From contig NZ_CZQA01000001.1 of the NCBI RefSeq assembly GCF_001458735.1, positions 186,001 through 250,000 of the forward strand: a DNA stretch of 64,000 bases. The letters run 5' to 3'. Under the pieces are notes generated by a model. The model was not told the DNA's origin. It saw nothing but the letters and a program-made list of their open reading frames with translations, and did not search any database. The DNA comes from Candidatus Nitrospira nitrosa. Lineage in GTDB: Bacteria > Nitrospirota > Nitrospiria > Nitrospirales > Nitrospiraceae. The position numbers were made by a program, and so were the translations under genes. Positions 9,005 through 61,120 of this stretch are shown piece after piece; the stretch's first letter is position 1; each line of letters opens with the position of its first letter.

Positions 9005-9301
9005 ATGAGCCGTCTGAATCTAGAACCACTCATGACGTTTTCGGATGGATCCTACCTCGCGATCAGTACGGAATGCTCGAAGGAGGGCGACTTTTCCTGC
9101 TCAGTCTATACGGTCGTCGAAACCGATGATCGCACGGACTTCCGCAATATCGCGAGTCACCTCCTCGCTTCATCTACATGCCTGACTGCCCAAGAACAGG
9201 CATACAGCTATACCCTGCGTCTCTACCCCAACGCGTGTGAGTCGATGAAGAAACCACCCTACCTGATCTGGCATGGGCCACGATCATCGGGCAACCAGTG
9301 A
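9005..9301 (+). CDS. Small protein of unknown function
   Basis: The 98-residue soluble protein starts at an ATG with AAAGGAAT upstream. It has no signal peptide and shows alternating strand-like segments (FSDGSYLAISTECS, DFSCSVYTVVETD), so a small beta-rich fold is likely. Four cysteines are present (residues 24, 32, 59 and 78). It lies just upstream of the IS481 element. I do not recognise the family. Confidence 0.55.
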   Translation: MSRLNLEPLMTFSDGSYLAISTECSKEGDFSCSVYTVVETDDRTDFRNIASHLLASSTCLTAQEQAYSYTLRLYPNACESMKKPPYLIWHGPRSSGNQ

Positions 9302-9344
9302 TTCTTCGATGGGTCACGGAATCCAGGTTGCCTGAGACGCCGGA

Positions 9345-10294
9345 CGCACTATTCTCCGTAAATATCCGACAGTCCGTCAGGTCCTTCACGGCTTGGCGAT
9401 AACGGCGGTCGCATCGGGGTGAATCCAAGATGCGGCCGATGATAGTGATACCGGTCCAGAAATGCACGCACCTCGCCCTGGAGTGTGGGCAGTTCTTCTA
9501 CTCGATAGGAGATCCACCCCAAGCATTCCTTGCGCAGGGTTCGATTGAAGCTCTCAATATACGCCTGCTCGTTCTTCTTATAGGGACGGGCGATGCGATG
9601 TCGTGTACAATACTGGAGCACCTGTTGGGCAAACACGCCTTTGAACTCTGAGCCCCCATCGGTCTGGATGATCTGCACAGGCCCGGTAAAGCGGCGAGTC
9701 ATGGCTGTGCGCAAAAACATGGCCCCATCCTCGCTTGTTAGTCCGGTCCGCAGAACGACATCCGCTTCCTTCGTATAGATGTCCACCCCGGTAAAGGCGA
9801 AGACCTCGCCAAAAACCACGGTATCCATCTGAATGACCGCGCGGGGAGCCGTGGCAATCGGCACAACGCCGCGTGGCTGATTGGTCCGGCCCCGAGGCCG
9901 TAAGACGTATCGTTCAGCCAAGATTTCATAGATCTTGGGAACAGAGAGATGGATATGCTGTTCATGAGCCAGAAAGTACTGAATCTTCTGCCCACAGCAG
10001 TCGTATTCACGGGCGCGAATCGCCCAGACAAGGCGTTTGACCGCTCCCGGGACCTGTCGTGCCGGACGTGGCCCCGTCTTGGCCGCAGCATAGCGATCCA
10101 GAAAGACAGAGAGTCCTTCGATTCGAACCGCCTTCAGCCAGAGTCCTATGGTTTCTCGATGGCGCTCAAGTTGGCCCGCGATCGCGGAAACGGAGAGCCC
10201 TTGAGTCGCCAGTTCCGCTGCAAGAATGATCCGAGTTCTTGTGTCCATGTCCAGAGTCTACTCTGGACTGTCGGATATTTACGGCAACAATGCG
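9345..10294 (-). mobile_element. IS481-family insertion sequence, apparently complete
   Basis: The ends share CCGTAAATATCCGACAGTCC as inverted repeats: left at 9356-9375, right as its complement at 10265-10284, extending imperfectly outwards. With the boundaries chosen here, CCGGA lies directly outside both ends (9340-9344 and 10295-10299), consistent with a 5-bp target duplication. The outer 10 bases align imperfectly, so the exact tips are uncertain by a few bases. It carries one intact transposase gene. Confidence 0.8.
9349..10248 (-). CDS. IS481-family transposase
   Basis: The 299-residue protein has an N-terminal helix-turn-helix (residues 1-60, LSVSAIAGQLERHRETIGLWL) and an integrase-type DDE core. 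The first Asp lies in VIQMDTVVFG, the second in IIQTDGGSEF, and the Glu in KKNEQAYIESFNRTLRKE. Its stop codon lies within the left terminal inverted repeat. The reading frame is undamaged, so the element may still be mobile. Confidence 0.92.
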   Translation of the reverse strand: MDTRTRIILAAELATQGLSVSAIAGQLERHRETIGLWLKAVRIEGLSVFLDRYAAAKTGPRPARQVPGAVKRLVWAIRAREYDCCGQKIQYFLAHEQHIHLSVPKIYEILAERYVLRPRGRTNQPRGVVPIATAPRAVIQMDTVVFGEVFAFTGVDIYTKEADVVLRTGLTSEDGAMFLRTAMTRRFTGPVQIIQTDGGSEFKGVFAQQVLQYCTRHRIARPYKKNEQAYIESFNRTLRKECLGWISYRVEELPTLQGEVRAFLDRYHYHRPHLGFTPMRPPLSPSREGPDGLSDIYGE

Positions 10295-10521
10295 CCGGAT
10301 AGCTATTTGCGCCGACACCTGCTAGGATACCTAGACTTCATCGCGCAGGGCCTCGCATGAAACAAGATGACAATGGCCCATCACCGATGTTGTTCCTGCC
10401 GGGAAATCTGATCGGAAGTCTGACCTAAGCCGCCTCTCCGGTCGCGTCTTCGGCCCTCTCCTTCCTCTCACGCACCATTTCTCGAGTCTCGGTCAATATC
10501 ATTTCTGAAGGAGAGATGCTC

Positions 10522-10827
10522 ATGAGTTTAAAGTTATATGTCGGCGGATTGCCGTACGCGGCAACTGAGTCGCAACTGACCACCCTCTTTGCCGAACACG
10601 GGACCGTGGAGTCTGCCCGGATCGTCTCGGACAAGTTTACCGGCCAATCTCGCGGATTCGGCTTTGTCGAAATGTCGACCGCTGAAGAGGGGCAAGCCGC
10701 CATTACAGCCTTGAACGGGTCACAAATGGATGGTCGATCCTTAACCGTCAATGAGGCCAAACCGATGGAACCTCGGTCTGGGGGTGGTGGTCGTTTTAGC
10801 AGTGGTCCGAAGCGTAGCCGCTTCTAA
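10522..10827 (+). CDS. RRM-domain RNA-binding protein
   Basis: The 101-residue protein has one RNA recognition motif (residues 3-80) with RNP2 LYVGGL and RNP1 RGFGFVEM, followed by a Gly/Ser/Arg-rich tail (RSGGGGRFSSGPKRSRF). This is the layout of bacterial cold-inducible RNA-binding proteins, which bind single-stranded RNA. ATG 10522 is chosen because AAGGAG lies eight bases upstream; the ATG at 10516 is only two bases from it. A long perfect palindrome follows the gene. Confidence 0.93.
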   Translation: MSLKLYVGGLPYAATESQLTTLFAEHGTVESARIVSDKFTGQSRGFGFVEMSTAEEGQAAITALNGSQMDGRSLTVNEAKPMEPRSGGGGRFSSGPKRSRF

Positions 10828-10850
10828 CGCCAAGCACGTTGAAGATGACT

Positions 10851-10888
10851 CACCGACGGGGCGCCTCAGCTGAGGCGCCCCGTCGGTG
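10851..10888. terminator. 38-bp perfect palindrome after the RRM gene
   Basis: Each arm is 19 bases and the two meet with no unpaired spacer at the centre (CTCAGCTGAG). It is very G+C-rich and begins 24 bases after the RRM stop codon. No T run follows on the plus strand. In RNA it would form a long hairpin with a minimal loop, suited to transcript end protection or termination. Confidence 0.75.
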
Positions 10889-11441
10889 AGTGTCGAATCG
10901 GCATTAAGACTCAAGATGGCCCTTCACGTTTGACCTCTCATCTCCGGTTACTCTACTCATGCTACCGTTCGCTCATCGGCACAGTATTCTCTGCCCTGGC
11001 TATGAGCCGTCTCATGTCGTTGTGATCTTTTATGAAACTCCCCTCCGCGCAATATCCACCAGCCATTCGCACTGCATTCGCTATCTACAACCCGATGTGG
11101 TAGAGTGAAGTTGTATTGAATCTGCCCCTCGCGCTCTTCCCTCCCCATACTGTTCCTGCGCGATTTCATCGATCAGTCGGCAGTCACGCTTGGCGGTTCA
11201 CGGCTAAGGCTCTCCTAGCAAGCAGCTACGTCCGCTGTGCCCTCGCAATCCGAGGTGAATACTGAGCTGACGACCTATGCGGGCAGTACGCCATCGATCT
11301 GCATGTGAACGGTTGAGGTGGGAAAACCACAAAGACATCAGGTCTCGCAAAGAAACTCTCGAGCCCTCAAGCATCGCTCAATTGATGGAGAGTCATAAAC
11401 CACACAGTGCGTGTTCGTAGCACACAAGATAAGGAGCAACC
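10889..11441. other. Gene-free stretch upstream of a 27-residue protein
   Basis: No gene family was recognised on either strand. The last dozen bases contain AAGGAG, the ribosome binding site for the small protein at 11442. Confidence 0.4.
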
Positions 11442-11525
11442 ATGGACGTCAATACACTTACGTTTGCATTCGTCATCGTGGCACTTGGGATCGGCGGAGT
11501 GATTGTGTATCTGAAGGGCAAGTAG
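11442..11525 (+). CDS. 27-residue single-span membrane protein
   Basis: The peptide begins MDVNTLTF, has a hydrophobic core AFVIVALGIGGVIVYL and ends KGK. The layout (short acidic N-terminus, one span of about 17 residues with small-residue GIGG, basic end) fits an inner membrane microprotein, N-terminus outside by charge rule. AAGGAG lies five bases before the ATG and a strong hairpin begins 22 bases after the stop, so it has the signals of a stand-alone gene. Function is unknown. Confidence 0.65.
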   Translation: MDVNTLTFAFVIVALGIGGVIVYLKGK

Positions 11526-11547
11526 CCGAGTTGTAAGATCCTCATTC

Positions 11548-11590
11548 CTGATGAGCCCTGTCCTCTCAGGCCCAGGACAGGGCTCATCAG
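11548..11590 (+). terminator. Strong hairpin after the 27-residue gene
   Basis: The arms at 11548-11564 and 11574-11590 are 17-base perfect inverted repeats (CTGATGAGCCCTGTCCT and its complement) with a nine-base loop. A weak T stretch follows. Confidence 0.75.
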
Positions 11591-11756
11591 GGCCAGTTTT
11601 GATCCACGCAGGATAACTGGGGTATTTCTACGTGTCGTTCCTAGTCAGAGACGGGAAACGGTATCCAATCCGTTGCCTGTTCACTCGTCCGAATCAATGA
11701 CCCAAACCATCACCCTGCCTGGGTAGAACGACAACAACTCACTGACAATCTGCGGC
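11591..11756. other. Short intergenic stretch before an IS630 remnant
   Basis: It should contain the missing N-terminal helix-turn-helix region of the transposase, but no such sequence was recognised, so the element is probably truncated here. Confidence 0.3.
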
Positions 11757-12434
11757 GTGGCCTACAAGCGATCCGGTCCACGGCGGCCCCACCAGCTGGA
11801 TTGGGGTGCGTTGCGCCGTCATGTAGATGACCACCCTGATCGGATACAAGCAGAACGGGCTCGGCATTTCCAGGTCTCCCGATATTACATCTGGAACGCA
11901 CTGCGAAAACTGGTGGTGCCCCATAAAAAAAGACGGAGGTACCACGGGCGCGGCCCGCTTCAACGAAAGCGGTTCCTCCGTCGCGGCAAACAGCCCGTCT
12001 ACATCAATGAATATGGGTTTCTCTCGTCATCGACGCGGCGCCAGGGGTATGCACCAAAAGACCAGCGTGTAGACGGCTTGGTTTCTGGGTATCGACGGCC
12101 ACGCACCTCGCTGATTGCTGCTCGCATGGACGGGCGACTCGAAGAACCGTACCTATTCGATGGAACCTACGATACAGCGCTCTTCAATGCCTGGCTCAAG
12201 ACGAGGTTGTGCCCACGGCTGAATGCCCACCACCTCGTGATCATGGACAACGCCGTATTTCATACTTCGCCCGAAACAGCGCAGCTCATCGAGACAACTG
12301 GCGCCACGCTGCTGTTCCTGTCGTCGAATTCTCCCGACTTCAACCCGATCAACCACGACTTCGCCGTTCTGAAGAAACGCAGAGAGTATCAGAAAACCGC
12401 GTCCCTTGATGAAATCATCAAAGCCTATCAGTAA
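11757..12434 (+). pseudogene. IS630-family transposase, degenerate
   Basis: A 225-residue open frame matches the C-terminal two-thirds of an IS630/Tc1-mariner type transposase: QGYAPKDQRV, VIMDNAVFHTS and SPDFNPINHDFAVLKKRREYQ. Only Asp163 of the catalytic triad remains: the first Asp (usually YIDE or LDE) is Asn84 in YINEYG, and the Glu of NPIE is Asn198. The usual N-terminal HTH is missing. No flanking inverted repeats were found. It is therefore an inactive remnant although the frame is open. It abuts an IS1595 remnant on the other strand. Confidence 0.8.
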
Positions 12435-12442
12435 CTATGAAC

Positions 12443-12721
12443 TTAGCTATAATACACCCAAAACGGGCACTTTCCCCGTTGCGCACGACCTCGTCGGCCC
12501 TTACGCACCCAGCCCAAATAACGCTCGTCCGCTTCAATCGCACCAGCCAGCAAATAACTCTCTTGCGTGCTGGCGATGAGCTGTCTCACCCGCTGCTAAA
12601 ACAGATTTGCGGTGTTCGCTTGAGCTCCGACGAACAGCGCCGCCGCCCGTGCAGTCGTGCCTGCCACGCAATGCTCCAAGAGCTTCTGCTGGAGCTGGAT
12701 CAACATTCGACTCTTTCGCAG
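12443..12721 (-). pseudogene. IS1595-family transposase fragment with an amber codon
   Basis: One frame of 92 codons reads LRKSRMLIQLQQKLLEHCVA, then GTTARAAALFVG, an in-frame TAG in NLF*QRVRQLIA, and SYLLAGAIEADERYLG followed by KGRRGRAQRGK. This matches IS1595 transposases (LRKSRLS.., NTA..F.HRLR, VEVDESYFGG, RKGKRGRGA.GK). It ends at a TAA at 12443-12445, about where the IS630 remnant ends, so the C-terminal half is missing. The overlapping plus-strand frame at 12437-12835 is an antisense shadow of it. Confidence 0.8.
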
Positions 12722-13055
12722 GTAGATTATTTGCTAATACGTAACGCCGCCAGGGGTCGCGTAGCTACTCCAGCCCCATTTATTATTCAGACGAGCATCC
12801 CCGGTGCGTGGACGGAAACACCGGACCTCTGTTGATTCTGTTTGACCGACGCATCGGCTTCCCCGGTCGCAGACAATTCGTTTCCTCCTTTCGCGCAGGG
12901 AGGTTATGAATGGAGAGCGCAGACTTTCTTTAGTCTAGGGTGCAGCCTACCTGCGCCCTTCCCCCTATGGTTTGCGAAAGAAGGGAAATGTTAGAGTTAC
13001 CTAAAGCTGCACACACCTACGCTGACTACTAACCAGTACGTGCGAGGATATCACC
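12722..13055. other. Upstream region of ftsH
   Basis: No gene is seen. It should hold the ftsH promoter. A near-perfect short inverted repeat AGGGTGCAG/CTGCGCCCT occurs near 12938-12960. A GAGGATATCACC precedes the ftsH ATG and gives a modest ribosome binding site. Confidence 0.35.
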
Positions 13056-15218
13056 ATGAGCAGGACGGAACAGCAGACTGGCCGCAATAGCAGAGATTCC
13101 ACATCCACACCTGCCAGACGCCTCCAACCAGCCGATAGTGGGTCTGGTTCCCGAAAGAATACGGAGCAGGCAAACGTGCCTCCGGGCAAGACATGGCTCT
13201 GGTTCGTATTCATCCTGGTCGCGAACTTCCTGCTTGGAAGGCTTCTGATCCCTACTCCGGAAGCGCCGATCACAGTGCCCTATACCCTCTTCAAGCAGGA
13301 AGTTGGAAAAAGAAACGTCGCGGCGATCTACAGTCAAGGGGACACTATTACGGGCCGATTCACAACTTCAATCGTATATCAGCCGTTGGGAGAAAAGGAC
13401 TCGGGATCCGGCGGCGAGACGAAAACAAAGAATGAAAAGAATTCAATACCCGGCGGTGAGATCAAATCGACGGACGACCGCGGTAGAAGCACCGGTAGCC
13501 TGTCCCAAACAATCAGTGTGTTCATGACGACCTTGCCTGCTTTCGTAGACCCTGGCTTAGAACAATTCTTAATTTCGAACGGGGTCGAGATTAGTGCGAA
13601 ACCTATTCAAGAAGGTGCGAACCCATGGGCAACGATCTTTTTTAGCTTCGGCCCGGGTCTGCTCTTCATCGGCTTTTATATCTGGCTCTTCCGTCGGGCT
13701 GCGCAACAAGGCGGTGGCATGATGGGCGGAGGTCTGATGGGCATGGGCAAGAGCAGAGCCCGCCGCTATGACCAGGAGCAAACGACGAAGGTGACCTTCG
13801 AAGATGTGGCCGGCATCGACGAAGCCGAAAATGAGCTGGTCGAGATCGTGGACTTTCTCAAGGATACCAAGAAATACACCCGCCTAGGAGGGACCGCTCC
13901 GAAAGGGGTGTTGCTGGTGGGCTCGCCGGGAACAGGGAAAACGCTTCTCGCAAAAGCTGTTGCAGGAGAAGCGGGGGTGCCCTTCTTCTCGATGAGCGCC
14001 GCGGAGTTTGTCGAGATGATCGTCGGAGTGGGCGCTGCGAGGGTGCGCGATCTCTTCAAGGAGGCACGTGAGAATGCTCCTGCGATCGTGTTCATCGACG
14101 AACTCGATGCCATCGGGCGCGCACGCGGGCAGATGGCAATCGGCGGATCCAGCGAACAGGAGCAAACGCTGAATCAAATCCTGACCGAGATGGACGGGTT
14201 CTCAAGTCGGCAAGGCATCATCGTCTTGGCGGCTACCAACCAGCCTGACGTATTAGACAAAGCCCTCCTGCGACCAGGACGATTCGACAGGCGGGTCGTG
14301 GTGAATCTCCCGGACAAGACAGGACGAGAGGCGATCCTGAAAGTCCACACCCGCAATGTCCCGCTCGCGCAGGACGCCGTACTGGGAAACCTAGCGGCCC
14401 TGACGCCGGGGCTCTCGGGGGCCGATCTGAAAAATCTCGTCAATGAAGCCGCCTTACTGGGAGCTCGCCGCGAGCAACACGAGGTCCATCACAAAGACTT
14501 TCTCGACGCGCTGGAGAAGATCGTGCTCGGCCCAGAGCGCCCGATTCTCATGAGCCGATCCGACCGGGAACGCATTGCCTATCATGAAGGGGGGCACGCC
14601 ATTCTCGGACTCGTCGTGCCCGGCGCAGATCCAGTGAACCGGGTGACGATCGTGCCCCGCGGGCAGGCTCTTGGTGTCACCTATCAGCGCCCGGACAGTG
14701 ACCGCTATAACTATCCGGAAGCCTATTTGCGCGCAAGGCTCATTGGAATGCTGGGAGGGCGTGCCGCGGAAGAAATTGTCTACGGGACCAAAACCACCGG
14801 GGCCGAAAACGACATCGAGCAAGCCACGGGTCTCGCCCGTCGAATGGTCACACGTTGGGGTATGAGTGAGCGGCTTGGCCTCGTGCAGCTCGCACCAAGG
14901 GAGAACCCTTATCTAACCGGCCTGAACGGTTACGGAGACGCGAAACCGTTCAGCGAAGAGACGGCTAAAGTCATCGACGCTGAGGTGCTCAAGATTATCG
15001 ACGAGAGCTACAGCGCAGCCCGTCGGCTTCTCACCGCGCATCGCAAGCAACTTGATATGCTTGCCGAAGCCTTGCTTGCACGCGAGACACTCAACGAACT
15101 GGAGATTCTCGATGTGACCGGGCTCCCTCATGCTCCGGCCCTAGAGACTGGGAAGCTGCCCGATCCCGATGCCCGCAGCAGGAGCACTGACCCCTCTCCC
15201 GGGCAACCGGTGGCATGA
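13056..15218 (+). CDS. ftsH: ATP-dependent zinc metalloprotease FtsH
   Basis: The 720-residue membrane protease degrades misassembled and short-lived proteins. It has a first membrane span at about 47-64, a second at about 194-214, then a glycine/methionine-rich linker and an AAA+ module with Walker A GSPGTGKT (about 289), Walker [12 protein letters not shown] and second region of homology [20 protein letters not shown]. The M41 protease domain has HEGGH near residue 510 and the third metal ligand in [10 protein letters not shown]. Unusual features are a long polar cytoplasmic N-terminus of about 45 residues before the first span, and a Gly/Ser/Lys-rich insert (about residues 113-150) in the periplasmic domain. 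It is likely a second FtsH in the genome, since such divergent N-termini are seen in paralogues; this is inference. Confidence 0.95.
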
Positions 15219-49627: not shown

Positions 49628-52600
49628 TTAAGCCGGCTGGAGATCGCCGAGCCTGACGGATACAAGCTTCGACACACCCGGTTCTTCCATCGTCACGCCA
49701 AAAAGCGAATCAGCGATGCTCATCGTGCGTTTATTGTGCGTAATGACGAGAAATTGAGCATTCTGTGCCAGGTCTTTCAAGACCGCCGTAAAACGGCCGA
49801 TGTTTTCCTCGTCCAGCGGCGCATCGATTTCATCCAACAGGCAGAACGGGGTCGGCCTGATGAGAAAACTCGCAAACAAGAGCGCCATCGCCGTCAACGT
49901 TTTTTCTCCACCCGACAGCATGGTAATGCTCTTCAGCCGTTTGCCGGGAGGTTGAGCCACAATCTCGATGCCAGGCTCTTGATTACCGGATGGCTCACCG
50001 TTCTCCAAAGGCAGTTCCTCGACCAACTGGAGCTCGGCCCGTCCCCCGGGGAAAAATTGCCCAAACACCTCGGTGAACTTCTGCTGCAATTCGTCGTAGG
50101 TGGCGGCAAACATCTCCTTCGTCGTCCGGTTAATACGCTGGATGATCTCCTTCAGCGAGGCAATCGAATTCGAAAGGTCTTGCTCTTGCGCCGACAAAAA
50201 GTTGTGCCTCTCCTCCAATTCCTGGTGCTCGCTGATCGCAGCCAGATTGATGGGCCCCATGCGATCCAGGCGATCACGGAGTTTCTGCAACTGCTCTTTC
50301 AGCTCCGCATCTGAACGCTCGTCCGTCTCTTGCGGCACGGCAACCTCCGCCTCGCCCGCCGACTCAACTGATTGCGGCGGAGCATCGACCAGGGTCAGTG
50401 GATCAAGTTGATAGGTGCCGGTCAGCGTACCCTCCACCGTCCCTAAGTGCAGACGCACCTCGGCGCGACGAACCTCCACGGTCATTCGAGCCTCTCGAAC
50501 GACCGACATCCCTCGCCGCACCTCCTCTAAACCGGCTTCAAGTGTTTGACTCGCTGTCATGTGCTGCGCCTGTCGCTCCTGAGCCGCAATCAATTCACCC
50601 TTGATCCGCCCGGCGTTCTGACCGAGATCTTGGCACAGCGTCTCTTGCCGGACCTGTTCCTCCCGACTCTGCTCGATCAAACCCTTCAAGCTGTTGAGGT
50701 GTTCACCCAAGGTTCGCCGCCGCTCTTCAGCCTCCTGTATCTGCTGCGTGACACGAACCCGGTTCAGCTGTTCATGTTCTCGTTTGCCACGCAACCCCTC
50801 TACCGTCAGCTTAGCCTGAGTCACATGCTCCTGATGCTGGTTCATCGTCTGGTCAAGCAACCCCAAGCGCTCTCGTACTCGCGCCACCAAGGCATCCTGC
50901 CCGTTTTTCTCCGCAATCCATTGTCCCAATTGAGCCTGCACGGACTGTGATTCTTCCTCAACTCGACCTCGCTCAGTGAGGCCCTCCTGAATCTCCGCGT
51001 CCACAGCTTGCAAGCGATGGTCCAGATCCGTCAGCTTGTGTTGGAGCTGTTCTTCATCTTTGCGCAACGACAGATTCTGCATTTCCGCTTCGCGCAGGGC
51101 ATCGCCGAGCTGGCGATCACGCTGGGTGAGCATCTGAATCTGTGCAACGACCATATCCCGCTGTTGCTTACTCTGATCAAGCTCAGTCACAAACGACTCT
51201 CGTTTGGCCTCAAGATCGATGACCTCTCGACGCCGTTCCAGCAGACCGGGCGTGCTTTGTACCTGGCCACCTGTCACGATACCCGAGGCATCCACCACTT
51301 CCCCATCCAACGTGACGAGAATCGGTCCGTGAGGAGCGCCCCATTCGGATCGCTCCCATAGCTGCAACGCCTGATCCAAGGACCGAATGATCACCACGCG
51401 ATCGAACAAGACGTCACGAGCCGCCGTTTGCGCGGCATCCGTTTGGACCAGATCGACCGCTCGCCCCACCACGCCGGGTTCCGCAGCAATCGTCGCCCAC
51501 CACGAGGGAGTCGAGGCCCCGTCCCATCGAGGACGCTGTGGGATAAAGCTGCCTCGTCCGAGCGTCTCTTGCTGGAGAAATCGAATCAGCCGTTTGCCGA
51601 CCGACGGCTCATCTACAAACCATCCGCGCACACGCTCCCCCAGTACCGCCTCGACCGCACGCTCCATCCCCGACGGAACGACCAGCCACTCGGCGACCGC
51701 GTCCCGCACGCCCTCGCAAGACTTCAGAGCAGGACCTTGTTGGGTACCTTGCCGGCCATAGCCCATTTCTTCACGCACCACGCTTTGGAGCGCCTCAAGA
51801 CGTGAATCGACTCCTGCCAATTCCTCCGAACGGCGCAGAATCACCTGATCCAAGGATTGCAGGCTCCCCGCAGCTTGAGCGGCCTCTTCCTGCACCGCGC
51901 GCAGCTCCGCACGCAGTTCGGACACCCGCCGATCGGCCTCTCCATACTCGTTCCGCAACGACTCATGCCGTTCGATCGCCGTAGCACGCTGGCCGCCGAG
52001 CTCCTCTCGCTCTCCCGTCAACCGTGCCCCGCGCCCTATGAGATCTTCCATCTTTCTCGCCAGTTGTGAGATGGCCTGTTCGGTATTCGCCACAAGCACG
52101 GCCAGCTGGAGCACATCCTTGCGGCCTCGCTCCTCCTCCGCGACGGCTGCTGCCCGCTGACCGACCAATCGCATCAGCTCCTGATCTAATTCCTCGAGCG
52201 CCTGAACCCGAAGCGTCATCTCCTCGTCCACCGACCGTAAGGACGTCTCGATCAGCTGCAACGTCTCAGCCACCTGGCCCTGCGCACGACCTAGCTCCTC
52301 GAGCTCAGCCGACTCCTGCACCTGTTGTTGTCCAAACAACTGCCCTCGACTCCGTTCGACTTCCGCCGCAGTCAACGCCTGGGCCTGTTGCTGCTCAACA
52401 CCTGCCAATTCTTCACGAATCTTGGCGATAGTGTCGGACATGGTAATCGCATCGAGGCGGGCTTGTTCTAGATCGGTCGTGAGCCGAGCCTGCTCAGCCG
52501 CCTTCTCCGATTCTTGCTGGTCGAGATTCAGCACATCACTCTCGACCTCCTGTAACGCCTGCCGCAAGGTCCGGAACTCCTTGGTCAGCAGCGTCACTTC

Positions 52601-53308
52601 GATCTCACGCACCTCTCCTTGCAAGACCTGATAAGTTCGGGCTTGGCGCGCTTGACGCTCGAGGGAGTTCAACTGCTTTTTGACCTCAGCGACAATGTCT
52701 CGGACACGGAGGAGATTCTGTTGAGTCGATTCCAACTTACGCAGCGCTTCGGCCTTTTGCTTTTTATAGCGAATGATCCCGGCCGTCTCCTCGATCAATT
52801 CACGGCGATCCTGGGGGGACGCGTTCAAAATCTGGTCGATCTGCCCCTGGGCGATCACCGTATGCCCTTTGCTTCCCGCACGCGTGTCGAGCAGCAAACT
52901 GCGAATATCCTTGAGCCGGCAGTGGACCTTGTTGAGGAGATACTCGCTTTCGCCGTTACGATACAATCGGCGAGTAATCATCATCTCTTGCATTTCGGTC
53001 AATTCGTTGGGAAGGCTCGAGCTCCCATCGAGCTTCATCATCGTGGGGTCAAGCCCACCAATGACCAGAGAGACTTCGGCCATGCCCAGGGGCTTTCGGA
53101 GTTCGGTCCCATTAAATATGACATCTTCCATCTTTTCACTTCTGAGTGTCTTTGTGCTCTGCTCACCCAACACCCAGAGGATTGAGTCCACGACGTTGCT
53201 TTTCCCGCTTCCATTCGGACCGACGATCGCCGTCACACCCTCGGGAAATTCGATCTTCGCCTCGGCAAACGACTTGAAGCCCGTCATGCTCATAGTCTTT
53301 AAATGCAT
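49628..53308 (-). CDS. smc: Chromosome partition protein SMC
   Basis: The 1226-residue SMC ATPase has Walker A GPNGSGKSN (residues 30-38), long coiled coils, a hinge domain at about 520-660 (LKSCEGVRDAVAEWL, RGWFVDEPSVGKRLIRF), the signature motif LSGGEKTLTAMALLFA and Walker B FCLLDEIDAPLDEENI. It organises the chromosome with ScpA and ScpB. ATG 53308 (MHLKTMSMTGFKSF) fits the family N-terminus. It is 217 bases downstream of ispH and convergent with rlpA. Confidence 0.97.
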   Translation of the reverse strand: MHLKTMSMTGFKSFAEAKIEFPEGVTAIVGPNGSGKSNVVDSILWVLGEQSTKTLRSEKMEDVIFNGTELRKPLGMAEVSLVIGGLDPTMMKLDGSSSLPNELTEMQEMMITRRLYRNGESEYLLNKVHCRLKDIRSLLLDTRAGSKGHTVIAQGQIDQILNASPQDRRELIEETAGIIRYKKQKAEALRKLESTQQNLLRVRDIVAEVKKQLNSLERQARQARTYQVLQGEVREIEVTLLTKEFRTLRQALQEVESDVLNLDQQESEKAAEQARLTTDLEQARLDAITMSDTIAKIREELAGVEQQQAQALTAAEVERSRGQLFGQQQVQESAELEELGRAQGQVAETLQLIETSLRSVDEEMTLRVQALEELDQELMRLVGQRAAAVAEEERGRKDVLQLAVLVANTEQAISQLARKMEDLIGRGARLTGEREELGGQRATAIERHESLRNEYGEADRRVSELRAELRAVQEEAAQAAGSLQSLDQVILRRSEELAGVDSRLEALQSVVREEMGYGRQGTQQGPALKSCEGVRDAVAEWLVVPSGMERAVEAVLGERVRGWFVDEPSVGKRLIRFLQQETLGRGSFIPQRPRWDGASTPSWWATIAAEPGVVGRAVDLVQTDAAQTAARDVLFDRVVIIRSLDQALQLWERSEWGAPHGPILVTLDGEVVDASGIVTGGQVQSTPGLLERRREVIDLEAKRESFVTELDQSKQQRDMVVAQIQMLTQRDRQLGDALREAEMQNLSLRKDEEQLQHKLTDLDHRLQAVDAEIQEGLTERGRVEEESQSVQAQLGQWIAEKNGQDALVARVRERLGLLDQTMNQHQEHVTQAKLTVEGLRGKREHEQLNRVRVTQQIQEAEERRRTLGEHLNSLKGLIEQSREEQVRQETLCQDLGQNAGRIKGELIAAQERQAQHMTASQTLEAGLEEVRRGMSVVREARMTVEVRRAEVRLHLGTVEGTLTGTYQLDPLTLVDAPPQSVESAGEAEVAVPQETDERSDAELKEQLQKLRDRLDRMGPINLAAISEHQELEERHNFLSAQEQDLSNSIASLKEIIQRINRTTKEMFAATYDELQQKFTEVFGQFFPGGRAELQLVEELPLENGEPSGNQEPGIEIVAQPPGKRLKSITMLSGGEKTLTAMALLFASFLIRPTPFCLLDEIDAPLDEENIGRFTAVLKDLAQNAQFLVITHNKRTMSIADSLFGVTMEEPGVSKLVSVRLGDLQPA

Positions 53309-53423
53309 CAGCCCCCCTTCATCGTGACGTAAGACGCACACTCCACGGACACACCCCTAGGAACGGAAAACTCCGCGACCTTGTACCATAGCAATCTGAG
53401 GAAATCAAAATCAAAACACAGTA

Positions 53424-53452
53424 TGTAGGGGGATCCAAGCGCTCCCCCTACA
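53424..53452 (-). terminator. Terminator after ispH
   Basis: TGTAGGGGGA (53424-53433) and TCCCCCTACA (53443-53452) form a 10-bp perfect stem with a nine-base loop. On the minus strand it is followed by a T-rich run (TACTGTGTTTTGATTTTG), so it resembles an intrinsic terminator for ispH. Confidence 0.8.
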
Positions 53453-53525
53453 ATTCATGGATTTAGATAGGATTAGGAACTAAATGGCAGTAGTCAGCCA
53501 TCGCATTCTCACATTCCACACTATA

Positions 53526-54488
53526 CTATCGTGGAACGCCGGCCATCGGCTTCTTCGAAGACTCGATTTGAACTAGTTCCTTCGGCAACAGGAACTCAAC
53601 ATCTTCCTCAATGACGGTTAACTCTTCGACTTCGAACGGCTCCGACGCTCTCAAGAACGCGACCACTTCCGTGACGAGAATTTCCGGTGCTGACGCACCA
53701 GCGGCAATGCCAACGGCTTTCGCCCCTTCGAGCCAGACAGGATCGATATCGGCAGCCGAGTCGATGAGGTAGGAGGGGATGCCACACTGCTCTCCCAATT
53801 CCCGCAACCGGTTCGAATTGGAACTGTTCGGAGACCCGATGACCAGAATGACATCCACGAGACGCGACAACTCTTTGACGGCATTCTGCCGGTTCTGCGT
53901 GGCGTAACAGATATCCTCTTGATGGGGCCCTTTGATGTTGGGAAACCGCTGATGCAACGCCCCCACAATGTCCCGACATTCATCGACACTCAACGTGGTT
54001 TGCGTGACATATGAGAGGTTGACCGTATTGTCCACCTTCAGTTTTTCCACGTCTTCGACCGACGACACGAGATGAAACTTGTCGGGAACCTGCCCCAACG
54101 TTCCGATCACTTCGGGGTGGCCGGCATGACCGATGAGGATCAGTTCATAACCTTGGGTATAGTCGCGGTTCACCTCATTATGAACCTTGATCACAAGTGG
54201 GCAGGTCGCATCAATGACATGCAGACGCCGCTGATTCGCTTCTTCCCATACCGACTTCGCGACACCATGCGCGCTGAAAATCACTACCGACCCTTCAGGG
54301 ACTTCGTTCAGCTCTTCCACGAAGACGGCGCCCTTCCGGCGAAGGGTATTCACGACATGTCGGCTATGGACGATCTCATGCCGAACATAAATCGGCGCGC
54401 CGTATTTCTTGAGCGACAGATCCACGATATCGATCGCCCGATCGACACCGGCGCAAAACCCACGGGGATTGGCGAGATATATCTTCAT
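53526..54488 (-). CDS. ispH: 4-hydroxy-3-methylbut-2-enyl diphosphate reductase (IspH/LytB)
   Basis: The 320-residue enzyme makes IPP and DMAPP from HMBPP, the last MEP step. The iron-sulphur cysteines are in [17 protein letters not shown] and [10 protein letters not shown], and the substrate-site [10 protein letters not shown] and Glu-bearing motif are present. The C-terminus has about 35 extra residues ([20 protein letters not shown]...). It completes, with dxs and ispG, the pathway genes in this window. Confidence 0.97.
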
Positions 54489-54898
54489 GGTCGTCGTAGC
54501 TCCTTCGTTCAGGCTCTACAAGACAGCCTATTTTCTCTGACAGTATTAATCGCTCACGATACGTCAGATCCATAGGGTCCGTCAACCGAATTACTGTCAC
54601 CCCATCCACGCCGCTTTGTCCATAGACTTGGAATCATGGTGTAAGCCAAACGAGTATTCCCGTATTTACGCTCTTGTCGATAGTCAGCGCATCAAATTTT
54701 CCGGTCATTATCCAGATATGGCAGGCATTCCCCTATCCAAAGCATACCGCACATACCCACTCGTTCGCTTCATACGATCGAGCCATTCAGACTCTCCTAC
54801 GTGGATATGCATTTCGTTTTTCTTAATTAATGAACGATGAGATAGTGATACCCATCCTATCTGTTAGTCGACCAATTCAGGAAAGGGAGGGACGTTGT
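54489..54898. other. Intergenic region between divergent genes
   Basis: It separates minus-strand ispH from the plus-strand cassette and must hold both promoters. No gene was recognised in 410 bases. Confidence 0.4.
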
Positions 54899-55894
54899 AT
54901 GGGACACTTTACGACGAAGGGAAAACTATTTCCCGAAGCGACCGATCTCAGTTCGTTCGGGTCACTGGATGTCACAGTCACTGCTGCCGGCACCACGGTT
55001 GAACAAACTGCGCCCCCCTCCTTGCCGGATGCCGATGGGGTCTCCCGGTCATTCCTTTACTGGGATACCGGCCGTCGTATTACTGGCAAACGCAAAGTCC
55101 GCTGGACCTTTAATCATCCTACCAACTGGTCCGAGTGGCCTGCCGCTGCCTATTACGGCACTCCTACGGATGGCCCTCCAGGAACACCTCATGTAACAAC
55201 AGCTACCCATTGGGTCGGGACCGGACCGATTAATCCGACTCCGATCGATGGACCAGGCAGCACATTTGTCAATGCACCAGGCGGCACGCCGGTCGCATGG
55301 CCAGGCGGCGGCAATGACCATGTTGTCCTCACGCAGTGGGGAGCGGCAACGATCCATGCCAAAGACCATGTCCAGCGTAATCTCGGTGATCCACTGTTAA
55401 ACTTTTCCTCATGGCAGCAACTCATCTATGGCGGAGATGGCAGCGGCTATTTTGAAGAAAACGACGATGACATCACCTCAGGCAGCGGAGTGACAGGTAT
55501 CGCAAATTCGACATCGCCGTTTTTCACGGTCCCCCAGAACAACAGCAGTTTTCTTATGGCAGGCTATGTGCTGCCGACAAAACCTGACATCGACATTTTC
55601 AAGAAACTGATCGAGCTCATCCGGGCTTTCGATCCCGGCAAATTCATTGATAAAGGCGATCCGTCCCCTGAAGACATCATCCGTTTAAAACTGATCAGTG
55701 AATCGCTTGACGTCGTGCGAGGGGGAACCGTCACGAATTACGACGCGTTTGAAAGTCTGCTTGGTGCGGCCAAGAAGATGAAACCTGCCGACCTCAAGCG
55801 CACGATTGCGGGAACGAAGGCAACCTTGCTCAGAGGCCAAGCGGCGCTGCGAACGTTGGAATCCATGATGAAGAATTCGAAGCCCAGAAAATGA
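54899..55894 (+). CDS. Trp/Pro/Gly-rich protein of unknown family, coupled to a radical SAM enzyme
   Basis: The 331-residue protein has no signal peptide, no membrane span and no cysteine. The first 230 residues are rich in Gly, Pro, Thr and Trp, with a loosely repeated GTP/PGGTP stretch (about 90-155); the last 110 are charged and helical (PSPEDIIRLKLISESLDVVRG, ADLKRTIAGTKATLLRGQ). AGGGAGG eight bases before ATG 54899 supports the start. Its last four bases (ATGA) overlap the radical SAM gene, so the two are made together. It could be a substrate or partner of that enzyme. I do not recognise a family. Confidence 0.75.
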   Translation: MGHFTTKGKLFPEATDLSSFGSLDVTVTAAGTTVEQTAPPSLPDADGVSRSFLYWDTGRRITGKRKVRWTFNHPTNWSEWPAAAYYGTPTDGPPGTPHVTTATHWVGTGPINPTPIDGPGSTFVNAPGGTPVAWPGGGNDHVVLTQWGAATIHAKDHVQRNLGDPLLNFSSWQQLIYGGDGSGYFEENDDDITSGSGVTGIANSTSPFFTVPQNNSSFLMAGYVLPTKPDIDIFKKLIELIRAFDPGKFIDKGDPSPEDIIRLKLISESLDVVRGGTVTNYDAFESLLGAAKKMKPADLKRTIAGTKATLLRGQAALRTLESMMKNSKPRK

Positions 55895-57465
55895 ACGTGC
55901 GGAGTCGACGCGTTCTCCTGGTTGGATACGAGGACCAGGACAATCTTGGGATTCGGTATCTCTCCAGTCGGTTGCTGCAACAGGGGCACCATACCCGGAT
56001 CGTTGCCTTCGGCGACGATCCGGGGCCTTTGCTGCAACTCATTCAAACTGAGCACCCCGATGTCATAGGGTTTTCGCTGATCTTCCAATACATGGTCCCC
56101 CAATTTGCACGGATGATCCGTGCGCTACGGGACGCAGGCGTGCATGCGCACTTCACCATCGGCGGACATTATGCCTCCTTCGAGCCGGAGGAATTGCTCC
56201 GACACATCCCCGAACTCGACTCCGTCGTTCGCTTCGAGGGCGAAGATACCTTGATTGAGATTGTTGAAAATCTCGATCACCCGTCACTCTGGAAGCAGGT
56301 TCCCGGCATTGCCTGGCTGGATCAGGGCAAGACGGTGCTCAATCCACCTCGCCAAGGTCGTACCCACATCGATGATTTCCCCGAGCCCGATCGCCGTGAC
56401 ATCGACTATCGACGGCAAGACTTGCCCACGGCATCGGTGCTTGCATCACGCGGCTGCCCATGGAAATGTTCGTTTTGCTCGATCATTACCTTCTATGAGG
56501 CGAACGGAACGACCGGTCGTCGTCGCCGCAATCCGATCAACGTTGTGGATGAAGTAGAATACTTAGTGCGAGAACGTGGCGTGAAGCTGATTCTCTTCCA
56601 GGACGATGATTTTCTTGCAGGTGGAACAGAGGCCAAAGCATGGGCTAAAGCGGTGGCCGGCGAAATCGTTCATCGTAAGCTAGAAGAAGAAATGCGCTGG
56701 AAAATCGCCTGTCGATCAGACGAAATCCGCGCCGATCTGCTGGCTCCCCTCGTCGCTGCAGGATTATGCCATGTCTACATGGGTGTGGAAGGAGGCGACG
56801 ACGCAAGTCTTGCCGCTCTTAACAAACATTTGAAACCGGCCGTCCATCTTCATGCAGGAAAGATTCTGCGCGAGCTGAATGTGAGTTTCGATTTTGGATT
56901 CATGTTACTGGAACCCTGGTCCACCCTACAGACCGCGCGCAACAACATGGAATTCCTCCGCCTCTTTACCGAAGACGGTTGGGCAGTGGCAGGATTTTGC
57001 CGAACCTTGCCATATGTGGGAACCCCGATCGAGCGACGGCTGCGCAAAGAAGGACGTCTCAACGGATCATCACTCGAGGCTGAGTATCGCTTCCTGGATA
57101 CGCGTGTCGACTTGCTGTGGGACTTCTGTTTAATGGCCTTCGAAGGACGGAATTTCGGCACACATGCGACATGGAACGTACTGAGAGGGCTATTGTTCGA
57201 TACCCACCTCGATATGCCCGGTCGACGCCGAGACCCAGACCGCGATGCAGCCGCACGCGCATTGGTCCAGGCTTCTAACGGAGTCATGCTGGATGCATTA
57301 GAAAATGCGATCGAGCTGATCGAATCAGGAGAAGCTCAGACGCTGGAGCACCACGAACTCGTCAATTTAGCACGATTTGCCAGGACAGAGGATCAGAGCA
57401 TTCGGCGGCAACTCATGGCCATGGAGCGTACCGGCGAATCTGCATACGAGTTATTGTTCCGCTAG
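55891..57465 (+). CDS. B12-binding domain radical SAM enzyme of unknown specificity
   Basis: The 524-residue protein has an N-terminal cobalamin-binding Rossmann domain (about 8-140: VLLVGYEDQDNLGIRYLSSRL, GFSLIFQYMVPQ, IGGHYASFEPEELL) and a radical SAM core with CPWKCSFC (Cys-x3-Cys-x2-Cys near residue 190). The C-terminal region (about 390-524) is unassigned. Enzymes of this class methylate unactivated carbons or remodel peptides and lipids. It is coupled to the upstream gene by ATGA overlap. An IS5 element lies immediately after its TAG stop without altering it. Confidence 0.9.
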   Translation: MNVRSRRVLLVGYEDQDNLGIRYLSSRLLQQGHHTRIVAFGDDPGPLLQLIQTEHPDVIGFSLIFQYMVPQFARMIRALRDAGVHAHFTIGGHYASFEPEELLRHIPELDSVVRFEGEDTLIEIVENLDHPSLWKQVPGIAWLDQGKTVLNPPRQGRTHIDDFPEPDRRDIDYRRQDLPTASVLASRGCPWKCSFCSIITFYEANGTTGRRRRNPINVVDEVEYLVRERGVKLILFQDDDFLAGGTEAKAWAKAVAGEIVHRKLEEEMRWKIACRSDEIRADLLAPLVAAGLCHVYMGVEGGDDASLAALNKHLKPAVHLHAGKILRELNVSFDFGFMLLEPWSTLQTARNNMEFLRLFTEDGWAVAGFCRTLPYVGTPIERRLRKEGRLNGSSLEAEYRFLDTRVDLLWDFCLMAFEGRNFGTHATWNVLRGLLFDTHLDMPGRRRDPDRDAAARALVQASNGVMLDALENAIELIESGEAQTLEHHELVNLARFARTEDQSIRRQLMAMERTGESAYELLFR

Positions 57466-58276
57466 GGCCCGTTAACACGACTGCCTCTGTTTCTGCGATA
57501 CTGCGTCCATGGAACTCACCGAGGCTCAGGCTCGTCACATCGGGCGCTGCTTGCCGACCCAACGCGGCAATGTCACGCTCGACAATCTGCAGATCCTCAA
57601 CGCGATCTTGTCTGTCGCTGAGCAGGGGTGCAACTGGCGCGGGCTGCCCAGGCAGTTCGGGAACTGGCACACGATCGATCCGCGCAGGAACCGGTGGGCG
57701 AAGAGTGGGGTGCGCGACCGCGTCTTGACCCAGTTGCAACAGGTGCAGATCCTCCGCCTCACGATCGAAGCCGTCGCGGTGGACAGTACGATCATCAAGG
57801 TCCATCCGGATGGGACGGGAGCGTTAAACAAATAGCCCGCAAGCCCTTGGCCGCTCCCGCAGCGGGTGGACCACCACGATTCATCTGGTTGCCGCGGATG
57901 CTCGAACGGCCTTGACGTTTGCCCTGTCCCGAGCCAGGCCCACGATGCCCCTGAGGGACGCAAGCGGCTGCACCGCTTCGGAAAAAGGCCGTGCCCGATC
58001 CCCTTGTTGATGGATCGGGCCTATGAAGGCGATGAGACGCGACCCCTGGCCGTGGAGCTCGGGGATGTGCCGGTGGTGCCGCCCAAGCAGAATCGCCGCA
58101 CGCCCTGGGACTACGATCACGCTCGGTATACGCGACGGAATGCGATCGAACGGCTGTTCCGCCGGCTCAAAGGATTTCGGCGCCTCTTCTCGCGGTTGGA
58201 CACGCTCGATGTCATGTTTGTCGTGGTCATCAATTTTGCGTTGATCGTGGATGGCTTACGATAGCGTGAACAGGCC
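57466..58276 (+). mobile_element. IS5-family element (IS427 type), flanked by CTAG
   Basis: The termini GGCCCGTTAACAC (57466) and, complemented, GGCCTGTTCACGC (ending 58276) are imperfect inverted repeats. CTAG flanks both ends (57462-57465 and 58277-58280), consistent with a 4-bp target duplication at a CTAG site. The left CTAG includes the stop codon of the radical SAM gene. Confidence 0.8.
57509..58264 (+). pseudogene. IS5-family transposase with frame disruptions
   Basis: The N-terminal part (57509-57835) reads MELTEAQARHIGRCLP, QGCNWRGLPRQFGNW and AVDSTIIKVHPDG, giving the first catalytic Asp. A shift near 57835 then moves to another frame (WTTTIHLVAADARTALTFAL, about 57861-57930), and a second shift returns to the first frame: GQAHDAPEGR, LLMDRAYEGD (second Asp) and RNAIERLFRRLKGFRRL (Glu). 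IS427-type elements can use one programmed frameshift, but two compensating changes suggest decay. Confidence 0.8.
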
Positions 58277-58404
58277 CTAGTATCGACCAATCGAAAGAGG
58301 ATAACTACGAGACCAGCACGGCCTTCGTTGCAGAGTCAGGGAGATAGACAGGAATTGGTAGTCGTGGAATGGCGGCTAGTTGGGGGAGGGTGAAAGCACC
58401 TCAA

Positions 58405-59076
58405 TTATCGTTTTGATTGTGATTCGTCGATGGCAGTTCGTTCGCGCAATTTGTTAACCAGCGCTTCATACGAGCTTTCGCGAATGATCTTCTGAAACTG
58501 GCTCCGATAGTTACTGACCAAACTTATGCCGTCGATGATGATATCGTAGGCGGACCAACGACCATCCTTTAAAGAAAGGCGGTAATCCATCGGGATCGTT
58601 GTTTTTTCCGACCGGAACTCCGTCCTCACCTCCGCATACGGGCCTTCAATCCGTTCCGTCAGATACCCCACTTCCTGTCTTCGGCCGGTGTAGTCTTCGA
58701 TTCGTCCGGCATACTTGTCCGAAAGAAAGCTCCGGTACAGCTCGACAAATTCTTTCCGCTGAGCCTCCGTCAACGGCTTCCAATAACTGCCCAGCACGCG
58801 TTTCGCCATCTCCGCATAGTCAAATCTGTCGGCGGCAATGTCTTCCAACTGGTGACGACGCTGCTCCTGCTTGCTCGGGTCTTTCAGCTTAGGATCGTCC
58901 AGGACGCGGAGCACCTGGGTGACGGTCTCGCGCACCGCTTGCATCGGGATCTCTGTGCCTTGCGAAGAGGCAGACACAGAAAAAGGTGCGGCAAGCACAA
59001 CGATAAGCCCAACCGTCAGCAAACGCCATGCGCCACCTCCTGTCTTACCCAGACTCAATACATGTAAGTCGTTCAT
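58405..59076 (-). CDS. MlaC/HpnM-like periplasmic protein, second copy
   Basis: The 223-residue protein has a signal peptide (to about residue 38) and an MlaC domain with DRFDYAEMAKRVLGSYWKPLTEAQRKEFVELYRSFL and AYDIIIDGISLVSNYRSQFQKII. It parallels the operon mlaC but has a longer tail (TAIDESQSKR). The toluene-tolerance family includes HpnM of hopanoid clusters, so this could serve hopanoid or phospholipid movement. ATG 59076 is preferred over a TTG 27 bases upstream. No mlaE or mlaF lies beside it. Confidence 0.9.
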   Translation of the reverse strand: MNDLHVLSLGKTGGGAWRLLTVGLIVVLAAPFSVSASSQGTEIPMQAVRETVTQVLRVLDDPKLKDPSKQEQRRHQLEDIAADRFDYAEMAKRVLGSYWKPLTEAQRKEFVELYRSFLSDKYAGRIEDYTGRRQEVGYLTERIEGPYAEVRTEFRSEKTTIPMDYRLSLKDGRWSAYDIIIDGISLVSNYRSQFQKIIRESSYEALVNKLRERTAIDESQSKR

Positions 59077-59713
59077 CTTCTGTAGGTCGTCAATCCAAGG
59101 CAAACGCTGCTTTTAAGTCTACACGAGACAACGCCACTTTCCCATTCTCGGCCGTAACATGTTGCTCCTTCACCCAAACTGACCTGATAGCGTGGACCCT
59201 GCTTGGATACCTTGGCAAGTCGGTACTGATCTCAATGAGCTTGGCAACTGATATTATCCCATTCCTCTCAAGCCAGACAATTCTACGCACGGAAAGCCTC
59301 CTGATCCCCTGCTCGACATGACGTGATCGCCCACCTATGCATGTATCCAGCAAAGCCGCCGTCAAAACAAATCCGACCTCCACCTACGTGCTCCCGTGAG
59401 ATCGCCAAGGGTCAGCAACGGGACAGAACAGGAATCTCACCGAAATTGAGGGAACAATGCCACGGGGTAGCGGCGCAGTCCGCAGCAAAAGAACCAATGG
59501 ATACATAAACAAACCGGCTGCTGACGAATCTGAGTTATGAATCCTTTTTTGCTGGTCGGTCTCACAAGGGTAGCGAATGAGTCGGAGACTTCACGGAAAT
59601 GGACCGAGGCTTCCTTGGGACACCGGATTGAACTGTTGGGACATGGTCAGCCGACCGACATGGTTGCAGTCAGATACCCACGATTCCATTCGCCATCGAG
59701 AAAGGGAGTGATT
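59077..59713. other. Gene-free region between divergent genes
   Basis: Over 600 bases with no supported gene. Short frames have no family resemblance. It should hold promoters for the MlaC-like gene and the tetrahaem cytochrome gene. Confidence 0.4.
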
Positions 59714-61120
59714 ATGCATGTGCAGAAGAGAGTAGTTGTCGGAGCCATGGTCCTCACACTGGGTATGGTGATGTTCTCACCCCCTCTTCTCTTTGCGAGC
59801 GATCTCTCTCGCGCAAAGGAGCTCATCCAGGGGACCTGTGCCCATTGTCACCGATTCGAGGGTGTTGCGGAATCACGGTTCAAACTTCACGCTCCTGACT
59901 TGATCTGGGCAGGCAGCAAATATCAACGATCCTGGCTCATTCGTTGGCTGACCGGGAAAGAGGCTCCGCTCTACGCGAAGGGGTATCTGTGGGATCTCAC
60001 GAACGTTCCGACCAAACACCTGATCGTCACGGAGCCGGAGGCGAATGCCCTTGCCGACTATTTTGCCGAACACCACAAAGATCCGCGTGTGACCGTTGGG
60101 GCATTTGATGTAGCGAAGGTCACGAAGTTCGATGTCAAACTTGGCGCAGCCGCATTTAAAGCGCATGCGTGCTTGGGCTGCCATACGATCGAAGAACACG
60201 GCAAATTGATCGGAGGACCGCAGAGCGCGGCGCTGCAACATGCCGGCCGGCGGTATAACGCAGACTGGCTGTATCGTTTCGGCCTGAATCCGCAAGACTT
60301 CACCACCCATAACGGGGAATTTCTCGCTGATGCGACCGACGCGCAATTGCGGGCGGTGATCGGCTACCTTGCCGTACAAGGGCTTGAGGACTTCAAGTAC
60401 TATGAGCCCTGGACCAGTCCAGAGTTCACCAATGCGAGCGTGGATCGAGGCAAAACGCTCTACAAGGAATATTGTGCGCAGTGCCATGGATTTACAGGCA
60501 AGGGTGACGGTCCCGCCGCATCCGGAATTGAGCCGAAACCGGCCGTGCATGCCAACATCCCCTTCGACAAACTGCCGATGGACTATCTCTACAACGTGAT
60601 CAACCATGGCGGCCCCGCCATCGGCAAGTCGCCGAACATGCCGTACTGGGGATTGACCATCGGGCAGCAGGGCGTAGCCGACGTGATCGCGTACCTGAAA
60701 GTGACCTTCAAGGGCGTGCCTGAGATGGCTACGTCCCCGAGCGGAGGTCAAGGCAGTGCCTGTATGCAGCCGCGCAAGACGGCCAAAGCGCCGAGTGAGT
60801 TCCTCACCAAGACAAATGCACTGCCGTCATCTTCCACTGCCGTTCAGGCGGGGAAGGAACTGTTTCTCAGGACAGCCCAGCCTGTTGCCTGCGTCATGTG
60901 CCATGGCGAACAGGGGGACGGCAAAGGCGTGATGGGAGCTGCGTTCGTGCCACCGCCACGAAACTTTACCTGTGGAGCGATGATGCGCGAGATCCCGGAC
61001 GGCCAACTATTCTGGATCATCAAAAACGGCTCGCCGGGAACCGGGATGATGTCATTCGCGTCATTACCGGACGAACAGGTCTGGCAGCTGATTCACTATA
61101 TTCGAAGTCTTGCAAAGTGA
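59714..61120 (+). CDS. Periplasmic tetrahaem cytochrome c
   Basis: The 468-residue protein has a signal peptide (to about residue 29, FAS) and four haem sites: CAHCH (42-46), CLGCH, CAQCH and CVMCH. The domains resemble class I cytochromes c; sites 1, 2 and 4 are followed by candidate axial Met or His. WLTGKEAPLYAKGYLWDL and PWTSPEFTNASVDRGK look lineage-type. GGGAG lies five bases before ATG 59714, preferred over an upstream ATG at 59537. Two cupredoxin-like genes follow on the same strand, so it is probably part of an electron-transfer or copper-related group. Confidence 0.93.
   Translation: MHVQKRVVVGAMVLTLGMVMFSPPLLFASDLSRAKELIQGTCAHCHRFEGVAESRFKLHAPDLIWAGSKYQRSWLIRWLTGKEAPLYAKGYLWDLTNVPTKHLIVTEPEANALADYFAEHHKDPRVTVGAFDVAKVTKFDVKLGAAAFKAHACLGCHTIEEHGKLIGGPQSAALQHAGRRYNADWLYRFGLNPQDFTTHNGEFLADATDAQLRAVIGYLAVQGLEDFKYYEPWTSPEFTNASVDRGKTLYKEYCAQCHGFTGKGDGPAASGIEPKPAVHANIPFDKLPMDYLYNVINHGGPAIGKSPNMPYWGLTIGQQGVADVIAYLKVTFKGVPEMATSPSGGQGSACMQPRKTAKAPSEFLTKTNALPSSSTAVQAGKELFLRTAQPVACVMCHGEQGDGKGVMGAAFVPPPRNFTCGAMMREIPDGQLFWIIKNGSPGTGMMSFASLPDEQVWQLIHYIRSLAK

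Follow-up and report, generated by a model that had tools for sequence, protein, structure and literature searches.

A two-gene cassette of Nitrospira encoding a cysteine-free orphan protein and a B12-binding radical SAM enzyme, a candidate substrate-enzyme pair

For most families of B12 radical SAM enzymes the substrate is, to our knowledge, not known. Among those with a described reaction, ApyD makes beta-methyltyrosine in the ApyA precursor, which is the methylation of an sp3 carbon in a ribosomal peptide (PMC10635010), PoyB and PoyC methylate residues of polytheonamide (PMC11285071), Mmp10 C-methylates methyl-coenzyme M reductase (PMC8828468), and other B12 radical SAM enzymes contract or form rings, ring contraction being the reaction of OxsB, or make thioethers (PMC13331322). 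Here we describe a cassette in which the gene of such an enzyme is preceded by that of an orphan protein, named P1 (Table 1). It is located in a 64,000-nucleotide stretch of a Nitrospira genome that is referred to as the window (G000 contig C1:186001-250000; genomes, contigs and loci are given by our own G, C and L numbers). No literature on Nitrospira or Nitrospirae combined with RiPP and radical SAM was found among open-licence publications, and nothing on the cassette was evident from the titles and abstract openings of wider literature listings.

Table 1. Features of the cassette, in positions of the window
Feature	Coordinates	Strand	Basis
GGGAGGGA, stretch resembling a ribosome-binding site 5' of the conserved P1 start	54885..54892	+	sequence reading
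P1 ORF, 331 aa, without cysteine; candidate substrate of the enzyme encoded 3' of it	54899..55894	+	conserved start, composition, dN/dS
P1 residues 225-331, the C-terminal part, which includes GDPSP (253-257); proposed enzyme-binding region	55571..55891	+	conservation; low-pLDDT helices
ATGA overlap of the P1 and enzyme genes	55891..55894	+	sequence
B12-binding radical SAM enzyme, 524 aa, CxxxCxxC; discrete family found in Nitrospirota	55891..57465	+	Pfam, profiles, tree

The ATGA overlap of the two ORFs, which a first-pass annotation of this DNA had pointed out, was found as claimed. It is also present in G037, and the two genes are separated by a 5-nt gap in the remaining five genomes that have P1. 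The same annotation proposed a common promoter region, which could not be substantiated: a consensus scan found no sigma-70-like site on the + strand between nucleotides 54480 and 57700, and as a consequence co-transcription is suggested by the overlap alone. No Rfam match was obtained in the region 50000-60000, so no cobalamin riboswitch was detected there. The neighbors of the cassette in the window are LytB/IspH on the 5' side and an IS4/5-type transposase in two pieces and MlaC on the 3' side; no protease or exporter gene is found among the immediate neighbors. The transposase (57509-58264) lies directly 3' of the enzyme gene, and a similar piece is also located 3' of the P1 cassette of G012.

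The P1 ORF as called mechanically begins at nucleotide 54830, at an in-frame ATG 5' of the start listed in Table 1. This latter start is kept in all seven orthologs, as ATG in six and GTG in one, with GGAGG 5' of each. P1 had been described as a protein of no known family, devoid of cysteine and composed of two unlike halves, and all three statements were confirmed. No matches to Pfam, NCBIfam, PHROGs or PADLOC were found at E values up to 1, or to PDB sequences at E values up to 10, and cysteine is absent from all seven orthologs. Residues 1-225 include 3.6% tryptophan, 8.9% proline and 12.9% glycine, whereas residues 226-331 have no tryptophan, 13.2% lysine and 11.3% leucine. Helices are predicted in residues 225-331 with a pLDDT below 50 nearly throughout, and the model of the protein, generated from five close sequences, was of low confidence (pLDDT 29.5) and was not used. 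Among the seven orthologs 250 of the 331 positions are invariant, including all eight tryptophans, 30 of 36 glycines and 18 of 27 prolines, the prolines being, if anything, less conserved than average. Conservation is even from end to end, and no hypervariable core is found. The median dN/dS over the 21 pairs of these orthologs was 0.055 for P1 and 0.072 for the enzyme, ratios that are rough since, in distant pairs, dS approaches or exceeds saturation. These values indicate that the cassette is beyond chance; both genes are real and evolve under strong purifying selection.

The enzyme includes the Pfam domains B12-binding (PF02310, 66 bits, cut-off 32.1) and Radical_SAM (PF04055, 56.2 bits, cut-off 29.5) and a CxxxCxxC motif (C189/C193/C196) that is invariant in the alignment, while no Pfam match was found past residue 341, in agreement with the cobalamin domain, core motif and unmatched C-terminal part recorded initially. 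The domain pair and the motif place it, as far as sequence can tell, among the cobalamin-dependent (class B type) radical SAM enzymes. A profile match to a known lipid or cofactor enzyme, which according to the first-pass annotation would speak against its proposal, was not obtained: none of 25 of the 26 NCBIfam models matched, HpnP not being among those 25, reached its cut-off. The assignments considered and rejected were HpnR hopanoid C-3 methylase (TIGR04367, 110.7 bits, cut-off 650), BchE cyclase (TIGR02026, 109.8 bits, cut-off 481.35), rSAM_ocin_1 RiPP C-methyltransferase (TIGR03975, 63.1 bits, cut-off 281.85) and ApyD (NF050148, 82 bits, cut-off 750), as well as a weak PADLOC match to PDC-M51A (23.3 bits) that looks like common radical SAM sequence. 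The window enzyme is not the hopanoid methylase, as the HpnR of this genome is a separate gene at another place (C1:1150450, 909.9 bits). The profile relatives below the cut-offs include the peptide-modifying B12 radical SAM enzymes ApyD and rSAM_ocin_1, and the solved chains that match by profile are OxsB, 9ccb, apramycin oxidoreductase 4, CysS, RimO and TokK. A structure model of the enzyme from five close sequences (pLDDT 46.5) was of low confidence and was left unused.

Using the window enzyme as query, matches with E values of 1e-60 or better were found in 12 of 395 genomes of the phylum, and a survey of 98 relatives added G045, G031 and a fragment, also in G031. In the Nitrospirota genomes searched, the family thus comprises 15 full-length copies in 14 genomes (two in G012). 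A profile built on nine family proteins detected 13 copies in 12 of the 395 genomes at 809-889 bits, eight of these copies being rows of the model and five not, and the next match scored 208 bits; at an E value of 1e-48 there were matches in 164 genomes, 152 of which had the lower tier only. The enzyme therefore belongs to a sharply bounded, discrete family within the phylum. The fragment, located in contig C117 of G031 (L031 3479-4411), is a truncated enzyme covering residues 217-524 with 84% identity and has no P1 beside it. P1 is missing from the whole G031 genome, and the fragment is likely the remnant of a lost cassette, apparently a case of joint decay. Some of the genomes compared are incomplete.

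P1 was found in seven of the 98 relatives and in seven of 79 genomes of the genus, always adjoining the enzyme. A P1 profile run over the 395 genomes gave six strong matches; five others with E values of 0.03-0.045 were regarded as noise, and a weak match in G045 contig C362 (E 0.007), which sits among transporter-like ORFs, was dropped. Four loci, all in Nitrospira MAGs, were identified by pattern in 84,980 species genomes, a type of scan that detects only close relatives, in a collection that may lack the window's own record. The enzyme had no matches in phages at an E value of 1e-15 and none that was confirmed among 91 pattern stretches of viral contigs. Plasmids had no match to P1; the enzyme and two of its relatives matched the same three plasmid records with about 27-33% identity, and no DPxP partner like that of the family was seen in the upstream ORFs read there. 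On the Burkholderia stagnalis plasmid NZ_CP156687.1 (L050 606-8451) three radical SAM genes lie next to AzlC/AzlD genes, a 55-aa ORF and the gene of an insulinase-family protease, possibly an unstudied cluster for peptide modification.

All 15 full-length copies of the enzyme gene are preceded on the same strand by the gene of a cysteine-free partner, which is P1 in seven cases and a short protein in the other eight. The co-occurrence across genomes that the first-pass annotation had proposed as a check is thus observed, no full-length family copy without a partner being found within the phylum. As a control, 18 second-tier B12 radical SAM genes were inspected for an upstream ORF with DPxP, a criterion derived from the family itself: such an ORF ended within 250 nt 5' of one of the 18, compared to 15 of 15 in the family, three of the control genes having no upstream ORF found, one of these with just 52 nt of sequence. 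The proposal of a dedicated partner or substrate is supported by this pairing; P1 itself is confined to seven of the 79 genus genomes, and in this enzyme family a short DPxP partner is commoner.

The short partners are proline-rich proteins of 68-171 residues, counted from start codons that were our choice, and end within about 125 nt of the enzyme ORF. They include 4 to 24 prolines and 1 to 7 tryptophans; that of G347 has 77 residues and that of G194 has 111. The DPxP motif is found once in six of them, twice in that of G194 and five times in that of G012b, the second copy of G012, and a charged segment that reads like a helix follows it and closes each protein. Four residues, which in the G347 partner are D25, P26, P28 and E51, are the same in all eight, five of which are near-identical in sequence. 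A profile of the short partners matched seven of the 395 genomes, and every match was a row of the model beside the enzyme. As to a RiPP cassette, in which a short precursor gene would lie beside the modifying enzyme, eight of the 15 copies have a partner of 68-171 aa, and the partner in the window has 331 aa. P1 includes the sequence GDPSP, which may be a chance occurrence, as a DPxP would not be unusual given the size and composition of P1; for P1 the stronger fact is therefore its adjacency to the enzyme in seven of seven cases.

Homology of P1 to the short partners was considered and found unsupported by hhalign, HMM and local alignment. P1 was not recovered at an E value of 0.01 with the short-partner profile A1, hhalign gave a probability of 0.4%, and against an HMM of all eight rows P1 ranked among its own shuffles. 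The local alignment of P1 with the best of the eight was equalled by 28 of 300 shuffles, and that with the whole G012b partner was equalled or beaten by 35 of 500. In a tree of 27 rows, in which the outgroup rows are long and of unsure order, the 15 family copies form a clade (100/99). Within it, where the first fork is weakly placed, the P1 group (100/100) has G012b as its sister (100/99), and the remaining short-partner copies fall outside that pair. Since the P1 clade nests within the short-partner lineage, the simplest history would be that the short partners are older and that P1 replaced one of them or grew from one.

Comparison of the flanks of the seven P1 cassettes indicates that the two genes are kept together in three or more different settings. 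G000 and G037 have the upstream side in common; G016, G024 and G045 are alike on both sides and G013 resembles them on the downstream side only; and G012a, the P1 copy of G012, has in common with this group only a few hundred bases immediately upstream. A divergent gene encoding a type I secretion ABC transporter of the HlyB family is found beside the cassettes of G016, G024 and G045 (1028 bits in G024 and 922 in G016, cut-off 726). It is followed by HlyD and a TolC-like gene, the latter below its cut-off, in G024 and G045 and not in G016. The three genomes form one clade (98/94), so the adjacency is possibly one event only, and HlyB of this type is present in 11 of 14 genomes checked, in eight of them away from the cassette; for these reasons the adjacency weighs little as evidence. 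At L033 2939-8026 HlyB has a C39-like domain and lies alongside HlyD and the TolC-like gene.

The region 3' of the G012b enzyme gene includes rSAM_ocin_1 (715 bits, cut-off 282) and PatA/PatG (724 bits, cut-off 421) genes followed by short ORFs, and judging by these genes this copy sits in a RiPP cluster. Three short ORFs in L029 (G012:C13:5000-22000; 8746-14814) start with MRLPMQSA or MKLPNQSA, apparently a common leader. PatA/PatG exceeded the cut-off in two of 14 genomes checked and had no match at all in the genome of the window. The initial statement that no protease or transporter gene lies beside the cassette is thus correct for the window and does not extend to the three P1 cassettes beside HlyB or to the sister copy G012b. 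LGFP-repeat proteins are encoded near the cassette in G347, G183 and G204 (L044 9740-10753, L047 5068-6417 and L043 1-465), and that of G347 matches matrixin marginally (23.4 bits, cut-off 24). Near the cassette of G031 there are a clear matrixin with a peptidoglycan-binding domain (L030 5795-7090) and, by Pfam, a DUF2278 and lamin-tail protein, a homolog of which is found near that of G328 (L030 4069-5091, L046 11472-12494).

We consider the cassette to be a dedicated enzyme-substrate pair in which the enzyme would modify the product of the gene immediately 5' of its own, carbon methylation being the most likely reaction, and assign to this reading a probability of about 0.52. The enzyme, with cobalamin and the radical SAM [4Fe-4S] cluster, would hold P1 through its charged C-terminal part and, most likely, methylate unactivated carbons in the tryptophan-, proline- and glycine-rich N-terminal part. 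On this view a short precursor-like peptide would have been replaced by P1, a partner of protein size, for which type I secretion may be an export route in some strains. We infer that the partner is substrate and not helper from its position and exclusivity, from the motif repeats that two of the partners have and from the RiPP cluster around one copy. C-methylation is probably the likeliest step because known B12 radical SAM enzymes, including those acting on peptides, methylate unactivated carbons; which part of P1 binds and which is modified are likewise assigned by inference. A more specific version, in which a family with an ancestral short DPxP peptide as substrate was recruited in one Nitrospira lineage for a newly arisen 331-residue orphan protein, is put forward tentatively; the Trp/Gly/Pro-rich half of this protein, with its eight invariant tryptophans, would have to be carbon-methylated or crosslinked by radical chemistry for the protein to function. 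That P1 and the enzyme are functionally unrelated neighbors is very improbable: P1 has no relatives that hint at a function, but all seven of its genes lie next to that of the enzyme, in three or more different settings, and a partner is present in each of the 15 family copies.

In the main rival reading, both P1 and the short peptides would be accessory subunits, serving in recognition, cobalamin loading or stabilisation, of an enzyme that acts on a lipid, a tetrapyrrole or another small molecule. The two best profile scores are with HpnR and BchE (110.7 and 109.8 bits), both of which act on small molecules, but they are far under the cut-offs of 650 and 481, and the genome has a separate HpnR. 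The partners vary in size and sequence while the enzyme stays conserved, and the window has no protease or exporter; on the other hand, the DPxP repeats, five in G012b and two in G194, look more like substrate units than a folded helper, though in two partners only, and the G012b copy lies within a RiPP cluster. The even conservation of P1, far larger than a typical precursor, would also fit a structural subunit. Taken together, an accessory role appears unlikely. The same size and conservation throughout, with no variable core, speak against a strict RiPP precursor, in which P1 or the short proteins would be cleaved to give a modified peptide that leaves the cell to act as an antibiotic or a signal. 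Such a scheme could draw on the setting of G012b, on the eight of 15 partners that are short, two of them with repeats, and on the HlyB-type gene adjoining three of seven P1 cassettes. However, among the neighbors annotated a maturation protease was identified beside G012b only, matrixin-type proteins being near some short-partner copies, and PatA/PatG is without a match in the window's genome, which makes this scheme quite improbable. In this cassette the genome itself points to the likely substrate, two adjacent genes being kept together in at least three surroundings. In addition, the short partner versions of 68-111 aa are suited to co-expression and mass spectrometry, and since peptides and a protein occur as partners within a single enzyme clade, the recognition of the two kinds of substrate can be compared.

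Among the known systems, HpnR (TIGR04367) is the best curated profile match and is like the enzyme in its B12-binding plus radical SAM architecture; the HpnR of the genome falls outside the family clade in the tree, on a long branch. BchE, the anaerobic Mg-protoporphyrin cyclase, is also related by profile, and the window enzyme differs from it in having an upstream protein partner. The rSAM_ocin_1 proteins, named for action on ribosomal peptides, are like the enzyme in being of the B12 type, and one lies beside the sister copy G012b, although in the tree they stand apart from the window enzyme on a long branch. The closest solved structure by profile is that of OxsB (PDB 5ul2, E 6.3e-25), the substrate of which is a nucleotide and not a protein. 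The substrate of Mmp10 is a catabolic enzyme and not a dedicated orphan protein. ApyD differs from the window enzyme in that its precursor belongs to a multi-enzyme cluster (PMC10635010), and Mmp10 provides a precedent for a B12 radical SAM enzyme that acts on a full-size protein (PMC8828468).
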